This document shows, in pieces, positions 55,855 to 58,612 of a stretch of 64,000 nt of DNA (its first letter is position 1; the number at the start of each line of letters is the position of its first letter). The position numbers and the translations under genes are program-made. The stretch is taken from the NCBI RefSeq assembly GCF_003426945.1, contig NZ_QURO01000004.1:682001-746000 (forward strand), read 5' to 3'. The notes beneath the pieces were generated by a model. The model worked only from the letters and a program-made list of their open reading frames with translations. It did not search any database and had not been told where the DNA came from. The stretch comes from Thermus sediminis. GTDB taxonomy: Bacteria; Deinococcota; Deinococci; Deinococcales; Thermaceae.

Positions 55855-56598
55855 GTGCGCCTCAGGGTAGACCCCTTGCCCACGGAAGCGCTGGTGTACC
55901 CCGATGTGGTCCTCGTGGTGGACGTGATCCGGGCCACCACCACGGCCGTGGCCCTTCTGGAGACGGGGGCGGAGGCCTTGTACCTCACGGCGGGCCTCGA
56001 GGCCGCAAGGGCCTTCAAGGACGCCGACGTCCTCCTCTCCGGCGAGGTGGGCGGGCTTAAGCCCCCGGGGTTTGACCTGGGGAACTCCCCCCGGGAGGCC
56101 CTGGGGGCCCCCGTAGGGGGGAGGATCGTGGTCATGAGCACCACCAATGGCACCAAGGCCGTCCACACCGCCGCCAGGACGGCCAAGCACGTCCTCCTCG
56201 CCTCCCTCTACAACGCCCACGCCGCCGCCAGGCTGGCCCGGGAGCTGGCCACGGAGGAGGTGGCCATCCTCTGCGCTGGGAAGGAAGGGCGGGTGGGCCT
56301 GGACGACCTCTATGCCGCCGGGGTCCTGGCGGAGTACCTGGGCCTCATGGGGGAGGTGGAGCCCGAGGACGGGGCCCGGATCGCCCTGGCCGTGAAGCGG
56401 GCCTACGGGGACCCCCTGGAGGCCCTAAGCCTCTCCGCCGCCGCCCAGGCCCTGAGGGCGGTGGGCCTGGAAGGGGACGTCCCCTTCTCGGCCCAGGTAG
56501 CCAAGAGCCCCATCGTCCCCGTTCTTTCGGGGCGGGTGGGGGAGGCCTTGATCTTCAAACGCGCCCTGCCCCAAGAAGTTCGTAAAAACGCCGGATGA
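55855..56598 (+). CDS. comB: 2-phosphosulfolactate phosphatase
   Basis: The 247-residue ComB family protein retains all motifs: [15 protein letters not shown] near residue 21, [20 protein letters not shown] near 60, [10 protein letters not shown] near 93, and [19 protein letters not shown] near 140. In methanogens this enzyme acts in coenzyme M synthesis; in bacteria the substrate may be another phosphate ester. I use the GTG at 55855, after GGGGAGGAAGC. Its tail overlaps the convergent M20 gene by 44 bp. A degenerate paralogue lies at 5248-5964. Confidence 0.88.
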
Positions 56599-57871
56599 CG
56601 GCGATCCCCCTCTCCAGGTTGACGAGGTCCAGCTTCTCGTTGGGGGCGTGGAGGTTGTCGTCGGGAAGGCCCAGGCCCAGGAGGACGATGGGGGCGGAAA
56701 GGGCCTCCTTGAGCTCCGCCACCACCGGGATCGTCCCCCCCTCCCGGGTGTAGACGGGCGGGCGGCCCCAGACCTCTTCCAGGGCCTGGGCCATGAGGCG
56801 CATGGGGGGGCTATGGGGATCGGTGAGGACGGGCCTCCCCCCGTGGAGCCTCTGGACCCGAAGGCGGTAACCGGGGGGGCAGACCTCCTTCAGGTAGGCC
56901 TCCGCCAACTGGGCCACCTCCTCCGGGTCCTGGTCGGGGACCAGGCGCATGGAGAGCTTCAGGCCGGCCTCCATGGGGATCACCGTCTTGGAGCCCTCCC
57001 CCTGGTAGCCGCCAAAGACGCCATTGGGGTCCAGGGTGGGCCGGGCCCAGAGCCGCTCTAGGGGGCTAAATCCCTCCTCCCCCGGAAGGACCTCCACCCC
57101 GAGCTCCCCCTTCAGGGCCTCCTCGCTAAGCTTGGGCCAGAGGGCCTTCTCCTCCTCGGGGACGGGCTGGACCCTCTCGTAGAAACCGGGGATGAGGATC
57201 TTCCCCGTCCTCTCGTCCTTGAGGCGGGCCAGGATCCACCCCAGGGCCTGGATGGGATTGGGGGCCACGCCGCCGAAGGCCCCGGAGTGGAGGTCCCGCT
57301 TAGCCCCTTGGAGGCGCACCTCCAGGTAGCAGAGGCCCCGGAGGCCATAGGTGAGCGTGGGAACCCCGGGGGCGAACATGGCCCCGTCGGAGATGAGGGC
57401 CACATCCGCCAGGAGCTTCTCCCGATGGGCTCGCACGAAGGGGAGGAGGTTGGGGCTTCCGATCTCCTCCTCCCCTTCCACCAGGAACTTCACGTTGACC
57501 TCGGCCTCGAGGCCCTCCAGGGCCGCCACGTGGGCAAAGAGCTGCCCCTTGTCGTCCGAGGCCCCCCGGGCGTAAACCCTCCCCTCCCGCACCGCGGGGG
57601 AAAAGGGGGGGCTTTCCCAGAGCTCCAGGGGGTCTGGGGGCTGGACATCGTAGTGGCCGTAGACCAGAACCGTGGGGGCCCCCTCCCGCACCAGGCGCTC
57701 GGCGTAGAGGATGGGGTGGAGGGGGGTGTCGTGGAGCTCGGTGCGAAAGCCCAGGGCCTTTAGCCTCTCCTCAAGCCAGAGGGCCGCCCGGCGCACCTCC
57801 TCCCTGCGGGCGGGGTCGGTGGAGACCGAGGGGATGGAAAGCCATTCCAAAAGGGGCTCTAGCGCCTTCAC
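56555..57871 (-). CDS. M20-family metallopeptidase (dipeptidase-like)
   Basis: The 438-residue zinc enzyme has [14 protein letters not shown] near residue 70, [11 protein letters not shown] near 100, [13 protein letters not shown] near 131 and a late [15 protein letters not shown] with the last His ligand. This corresponds to the carnosinase/PepV-like branch that cleaves dipeptides or N-acyl amino acids. The start GTG overlaps the stop of the tandem HspR-like gene (GTGA), so it is made from the same message. Confidence 0.88.
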
Positions 57872-58566
57872 GGACCCATGCTACTCCCTCGGGGCAGGCC
57901 CTTGCCCTCCTCCAGGAGGAGGAGCTTGAGCCGGGCCACCTCCGCCTCAAAGCGGGCCTGGAGGGCCTCGAGCTCGGCCCTGAGGCGCATGATCTCCTCC
58001 ACCCCCGCCAGGTTCACCCCAAGCTCCTGCGTCAGACGCCGGATCTCCCTCAAGCGCTCAATGTCCCGCTCCGAGTAAAGCCTCGTCTTCCCCCCAGAAC
58101 GCCTCGGCTTGATCAAACCCTTCCGCTCATAAAGGCGCAGGGTCTGGGGGTGCATCTCCACCAGCTCCGCCGCTACGCTGATGATGTAGACGGGACGGTC
58201 CTTGGAGGAGGGCTTTTCCGTTTCCCCGGGGGCGGGGAGGGCCTTGCGCTCCAGCTCCCTGAAGCGCTCCCCGATCTCCGCCTTGAGCCTGACGATCTCC
58301 GCCTCAAAGCGGGCCTGGAGGGCCTCGAGCTCGGCCCTGAGGCGCATGATCTCCTCCACCCCCGCCAGGTTCACCCCAAGCTCCTGCGTCAGACGCCGGA
58401 TCTCCCTCAAGCGCTCAATGTCCCGCTCCGAGTAAAGCCTCGTCTTCCCCCCAGAACGCCTCGGCTTGATCAAACCCTTCCGCTCATAAAGGCGCAGGGT
58501 CTGGGGGTGCATCTCCACCAGCTCCGCCGCTACGCTGATGATGTAGACGGGACGGTCCTTGTCCAT
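57868..58566 (-). CDS. HspR/MerR-like regulator, two full copies fused in one chain
   Basis: The 232-residue protein is two repressor units in tandem. Each unit has the motif [20 protein letters not shown], the recognition helix [15 protein letters not shown], and a leucine-rich dimerisation helix, as in HspR, the heat-shock repressor that binds inverted HAIR sites. Unit 1 ends with a linker near [14 protein letters not shown]; unit 2 ends with a different tail ([15 protein letters not shown]). The first DNA-binding parts are identical because the DNA carries a perfect 265-bp repeat. A normal HspR-like protein is one unit of about 110-130 residues and acts as a dimer; this could be a single-chain dimer. 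An assembly or duplication artefact is the alternative. Confidence 0.8.
57940..58204. repeat. 265-bp direct repeat, copy A (codes unit 2 of the tandem regulator)
   Basis: Read base by base, it is identical to 58297-58561. The offset is 357 bp, 119 codons, so the frame is kept. Confidence 0.95.
58297..58561. repeat. 265-bp direct repeat, copy B (codes unit 1 of the tandem regulator)
   Basis: Identical to 57940-58204. The 92 bp between the copies (58205-58296) are unique and code the inter-unit linker and the end of the first coiled helix. Confidence 0.95.
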
Positions 58567-58606
58567 GGCCCTTAGCCCCTTCCGCTAAAGCCTCCTAACC
58601 TAAGTT

Positions 58607-58612
58607 ATTATA
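58607..58612 (-). promoter_or_regulatory. -10 box of the tandem HspR-like gene
   Basis: A consensus TATAAT on the minus strand, about 40 nt before the ATG at 58566, with a purine-rich leader. No -35 match and no clear HAIR-type inverted repeat is seen. It overlaps the end of the iclR gene. Confidence 0.6.

Follow-up and report, generated by a model that had tools for sequence, protein, structure and literature searches.

A fused two-unit HspR in Thermus, a probable single-chain dimer whose halves evolve in concert

Why should one reading frame carry the same HspR unit twice, and to the letter over 265 bp? The gene in question lies in a 64,000-nucleotide stretch of the Thermus sediminis contig NZ_QURO01000004.1, which we refer to as the window. 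There, an hspR of the fused two-unit type starts with ATG and occupies positions 57868–58566 on the minus strand, encoding a protein of 232 amino acids (calculated 26.8 kDa, pI 9.7). A first-pass annotation had described one 232-codon frame with two complete HspR/MerR-like units, and the domain matches bear this out. MerR_1 is found in two stretches (4.2e-37), giving the MerR-superfamily layout of an N-terminal winged helix-turn-helix (HTH) followed by a long helix twice over, while NF047375 (HspR) exceeds its cut-off in two stretches of the ORF, as expected of two complete units in one frame. The NCBIfam model NF047377 (heat_HspR_dupli, “HspR, fused homodimer type”) matches residues 3–214 of 232 with 388.8 bits, against a curated cut-off of 300 bits. 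This model already names the two-unit type and describes the same architecture, which is itself not new; no dedicated paper on fused HspR was found in the open-access literature. Newly described here are the homogenisation of the HspR halves and the operator layout.

The repeat was recovered as previously reported, as two identical 265-bp copies at an offset of 357 bp (57940–58204 versus 58297–58561), and a near-repeat extends to 280 nt at 99% identity. Repeat and domain borders assign the copy at 58297–58561 (minus strand) to the N-terminal unit A, where it covers the winged helix and the start of the long helix. The end of this helix and then a disordered linker follow at 58207–58296 (minus strand, approximately residues 91–120, with pLDDT below 50 at residues 105–120), and sequence alignment shows this tail and linker to be kept by position across species. 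The copy at 57940–58204 (minus strand) belongs to the C-terminal unit B, whose tail (57871–57936, minus strand, approximately residues 211–232) is position-specific across Thermus according to alignment and model. The two C-terminal tails differ in sequence, as the annotation had also claimed; that of unit B holds the leucine stretch LLLL and is the only one of the two left free. Eleven HTH positions are invariant in both units among the 40 proteins compared, which fits both halves reading matching half-sites.

The proposal that the duplication is very recent did not survive a survey of 61 genomes, comprising the window genome and its relatives. The two-unit ORF is present in most Thermus and in neighbouring genera and families, with one family, here called f3, carrying a single unit that scores approximately 130–185 bits against NF047377. 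The two-unit gene recurs in 15 further Thermus genomes, some of them complete or nearly so, and Meiothermus has it with diverged units. Across the phylum the fused-type cut-off is exceeded in 50 of 111 genomes, so the idea that all relatives might prove single-unit also falls away. By these sequence comparisons the fusion is old, spans several families and is common to most of the order. The M20 peptidase gene that neighbours hspR in Thermus also adjoins the single-unit hspR in 6 of 9 f3 loci, which points to an in-place tandem duplication before several families split, or to loss in f3; a protein tree of the 78-residue units with outgroups did not place the f3 family, and a plasmid search returned only short matches about one unit long. 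Among the control genomes, two of three matches exceed the fused-type cut-off; elimination would make these Thermus composti and Deinobacterium chartae, and the fused form may reach the Deinococcaceae.

How, then, have the halves of an old gene stayed identical? At third codon positions in 16 Thermus, A and B within a gene are 98.6% identical, as opposed to 81.4% for A against A between species. Purifying selection on the protein fails to account for such synonymous identity within genomes. Identity between A and B is 91–100% inside the homogenised tract and 31–55% outside it, with sharp ends at the unit borders. A nucleotide tree joins the two units of each Thermus genome tested as sisters, and does the same for the sister genus (G028), G039 (family f4), Calidithermus roseus and some others. 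This pattern might also arise if each species had recently undergone its own tandem duplication. However, the linker and tail are homologous and conserved by position across Thermus and can be aligned to Meiothermus, where unit A and unit B mostly fall into distinct clades, and together with the sharp tract ends this positional conservation argues for one old fusion rather than many new ones, leaving repeated duplication very improbable. The unit pairs cluster by species, and the identity of the halves represents concerted evolution, best explained by intragenic gene conversion, in agreement with the strong conversion that the annotation had offered as one cause. T. thermophilus is polyploid, and one study of marked alleles there explained their segregation by random partitioning rather than conversion (PMC6469415); given that study, the route of homogenisation is one that we infer. 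The gene provides a clear example, from bacteria, of concerted evolution within one gene.

An exact 265-bp repeat could also reflect an assembly artefact that doubled a one-unit gene, as the annotation had cautioned, and several drafts do break or look collapsed at hspR. Against this, the linker is unique and the same structure recurs in many independent assemblies. The two-unit gene of the 15 other Thermus genomes and the diverged Meiothermus units exclude such an artefact in practice, and we give it almost no weight. The broken drafts (G001, G003, G006, G007 and G023) have contigs that end inside hspR, as expected for an exact repeat. In four further Thermus assemblies (G014, G020, G022 and G026; loci L121, L122, L123 and L124) a single unit combines the start of A with the tail of B, either because the halves have recombined or because the assembly has collapsed. 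Finished Thermus CCB_US3_UF1, whose 2,243,772 bp chromosome was put together from 454 and Illumina data (PMC4599208), is among the genomes assembled with one unit. Such assemblies may mean that two units are non-essential, or that the repeat has collapsed; short-read assemblies in general may collapse or break at hspR. A further locus (G025, L126:915-1628) has its two HspR units in different reading frames, through a frameshift or a sequencing error in the linker.

If the halves are kept alike, the DNA they are predicted to read should be considered next. The HAIR consensus is CTTGAGT-N7-ACTCAAG (PMC6102357). Upstream of the window gene, a candidate autoregulatory operator with HAIR spacing, CTTTAGC-N7-GCTAAGG, lies over the ribosome-binding region at 58570–58590 (minus strand), and alignment across Thermus places a promoter −10 element, TATAAT, at 58607–58612 (minus strand). 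Most Thermus leaders carry CTTTAGC-N7-GCTAAAG or a near form of it. At dnaK, an inverted HAIR-like site stands directly 5′ of TCTnTTGAC (the −35 region) in 18 genomes, single-unit f3 included, where it is similar and weaker. In Meiothermus and Calidithermus these 21 nt read CTTGATA-N7-ACTCAAG or close to it, mostly with 2–3 mismatches in 14 positions, a score reached by 0–8 of 1000 shuffles; one Meiothermus has 4 mismatches, a score that 68 of 1000 shuffles reach. The left arm is decayed in Thermus, and the site of the window genome is weak taken alone (5/14 mismatches, a score reached by 362 of 1000 shuffles), so the case for a dnaK operator there rests on its fixed position across species and not on its own score. 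In the sister genus no HAIR-like site was recognised at dnaK.

The promoter of ssrA, which encodes tmRNA, gives an exact match to a degenerate HAIR pattern in 19 of 19 Thermus loci read, where we estimate from base composition (68% G+C) about 0.03 exact matches per genome. A CTTTAGC arm is here set opposite the HAIR arm ACTCAAG at N7 spacing, spanning the −10 region, and the promoter around the site is partly conserved too. The pattern joins the HAIR and hspR-leader forms and was derived partly from the hspR leader, so that it is the ssrA and dnaK sites that constitute independent evidence. The sister genus has CTTGAGC-N7-ACTCAAG at ssrA, and beyond it and Thermus no HAIR-like site was found at ssrA in other genera. 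As an HspR target, ssrA therefore looks lineage-specific, and its predicted site suggests a lineage-specific heat-shock control of trans-translation. In the window genome the tmRNA promoter bearing this site lies in the ssrA-rimP intergenic region (L222 and L251), outside the window. A search of the same genome for canonical HAIR sites with up to 3 mismatches gave 52 sites against 42 in a reversed control, which is not a clear enrichment; upstream regions of Hsp20 genes presented no clear HAIR site by eye, and most of the remaining approximate hits to the operator pattern look coding or unrelated.

The inverted repeat in the hspR leader could instead form an RNA hairpin controlling translation, a suggestion prompted by its arms flanking the ribosome-binding region GGGAGGA, which closely precedes the ATG. 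The recurrence of the CTTTAGC arm in the ssrA promoter, at N7 spacing and facing a HAIR arm, speaks for DNA recognition, and we regard the hairpin as unlikely, although a serious contender; it would concern autoregulation only and is compatible with a single-chain dimer. The annotation had also raised the possibility that a covalent dimer might recognise direct-repeat operators. This idea is unsupported, as the candidate sites at dnaK, ssrA and hspR are all inverted (7-N7-7).

Can one chain cover one such site? AlphaFold models two winged helices, long helices at residues 67–105 and 186–221 and a disordered linker at 105–120, with low confidence in the relative placement of the units (pTM 0.45 for the window protein, 0.56 for a Meiothermus query). 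Among solved structures, the closest folds belong to the MerR family, headed by GlnR. MerR dimers pair through an antiparallel coiled coil, and in this geometry the end of the A helix would come near the B winged helix. We consider it probable that the gene encodes a natural single-chain HspR dimer that represses chaperone genes and itself, this being the best joint reading of the data. Each unit would supply a winged helix of the MerR type together with a long helix for dimerisation, with a flexible linker of approximately 15–20 residues allowing the two helices to pair within the chain, so that one polypeptide could cover one inverted HAIR operator (7-N7-7). Bound HspR would occlude RNA polymerase at dnaK, at ssrA and at its own gene, and hence at the overlapping M20 gene, until heat or a shortage of DnaK released it, as the HspR family would lead us to expect. 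Mycobacterial HspR is co-regulated by DnaK, and its turnover depends in part on the C-terminal tail (PMC10415612). A role of DnaK as co-repressor, acting through a hydrophobic C-terminal tail, has also been described for the mycobacterial protein. In solution, homologues of HspR interconvert between monomeric and dimeric forms (work cited in PMC6102357); linking the units would leave no monomer–dimer equilibrium, and the change in cooperativity or dosage that the annotation had foreseen is plausible. In Thermus and some other lineages, intragenic gene conversion would have homogenised the halves repeatedly, while the linker and C-terminal tail kept their identity. The fuller version of this model, in which the dimer is obligate, conversion keeps the halves matched to a palindromic operator, concentration dependence is altered and tmRNA belongs to the Thermus regulon, we put forward tentatively, as somewhat less than an even prospect.

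Alternatively, two chains might pair unit by unit; the resulting four-domain complex would bridge two operators or bind extended DNA cooperatively. Helicobacter pylori HspR has been proposed to act as three cooperative dimers and oligomers (PMC6102357), and the disordered linker makes both connections sterically possible. Only a single 7-N7-7 site is recognised at dnaK and at ssrA, however, and the MerR-dimer geometry favours pairing within the chain, making a four-domain complex a fairly improbable arrangement.

The gene immediately downstream, an M20-type peptidase ORF with a GTG start at 57871 (56555–57871, minus strand), overlaps the hspR stop by 4 nt. The annotation had the peptidase translationally coupled to hspR; the overlap is present in Thermus, and coupling is plausible. 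In Marinithermus, Oceanithermus and Calidithermus an M20 gene follows hspR without the 4-nt overlap, and no M20 match was found near hspR in the Meiothermus loci read.

Compared with single-unit HspR (NF047375; Streptomyces, Mycobacterium, Helicobacter), the window protein shares units that match over the cut-off and candidate inverted HAIR-like sites at dnaK, but it has two units per chain, its gene adjoins M20 and lies apart from dnaK, and in Thermus ssrA is a predicted target. GlnR, CueR, CadR and MerR, MerR-family dimers of solved structure, share the winged helix with each HspR unit, although their dimers consist of separate chains and several have a metal sensor that is absent from HspR. 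The MerR coiled coil has been engineered as a single chain, reportedly without the DNA-binding domains. That construct joined two MerR dimerisation helices as a metal-binding fragment (Song et al. 2004, cited in PMC10960487 as reference 37), whereas the window HspR is natural and full-length. Fused dimers are a known protein-engineering trick, of which this would be a natural example, conserved across much of an order and at a core stress switch. With single-unit relatives occupying the same locus and sharing the operator layout, the system offers a clean test of what linking changes, covering concentration dependence, response speed and stability at 70 °C.

At L223:1584-1667, in a part of the window genome (G000:C4) that lies beyond the window, Rfam RF01786 (69.7 bits) identifies a c-di-GMP-II riboswitch. 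An ORF with a signal-like N-terminus follows a short way downstream, and a similar stretch is present in G017 (L230).
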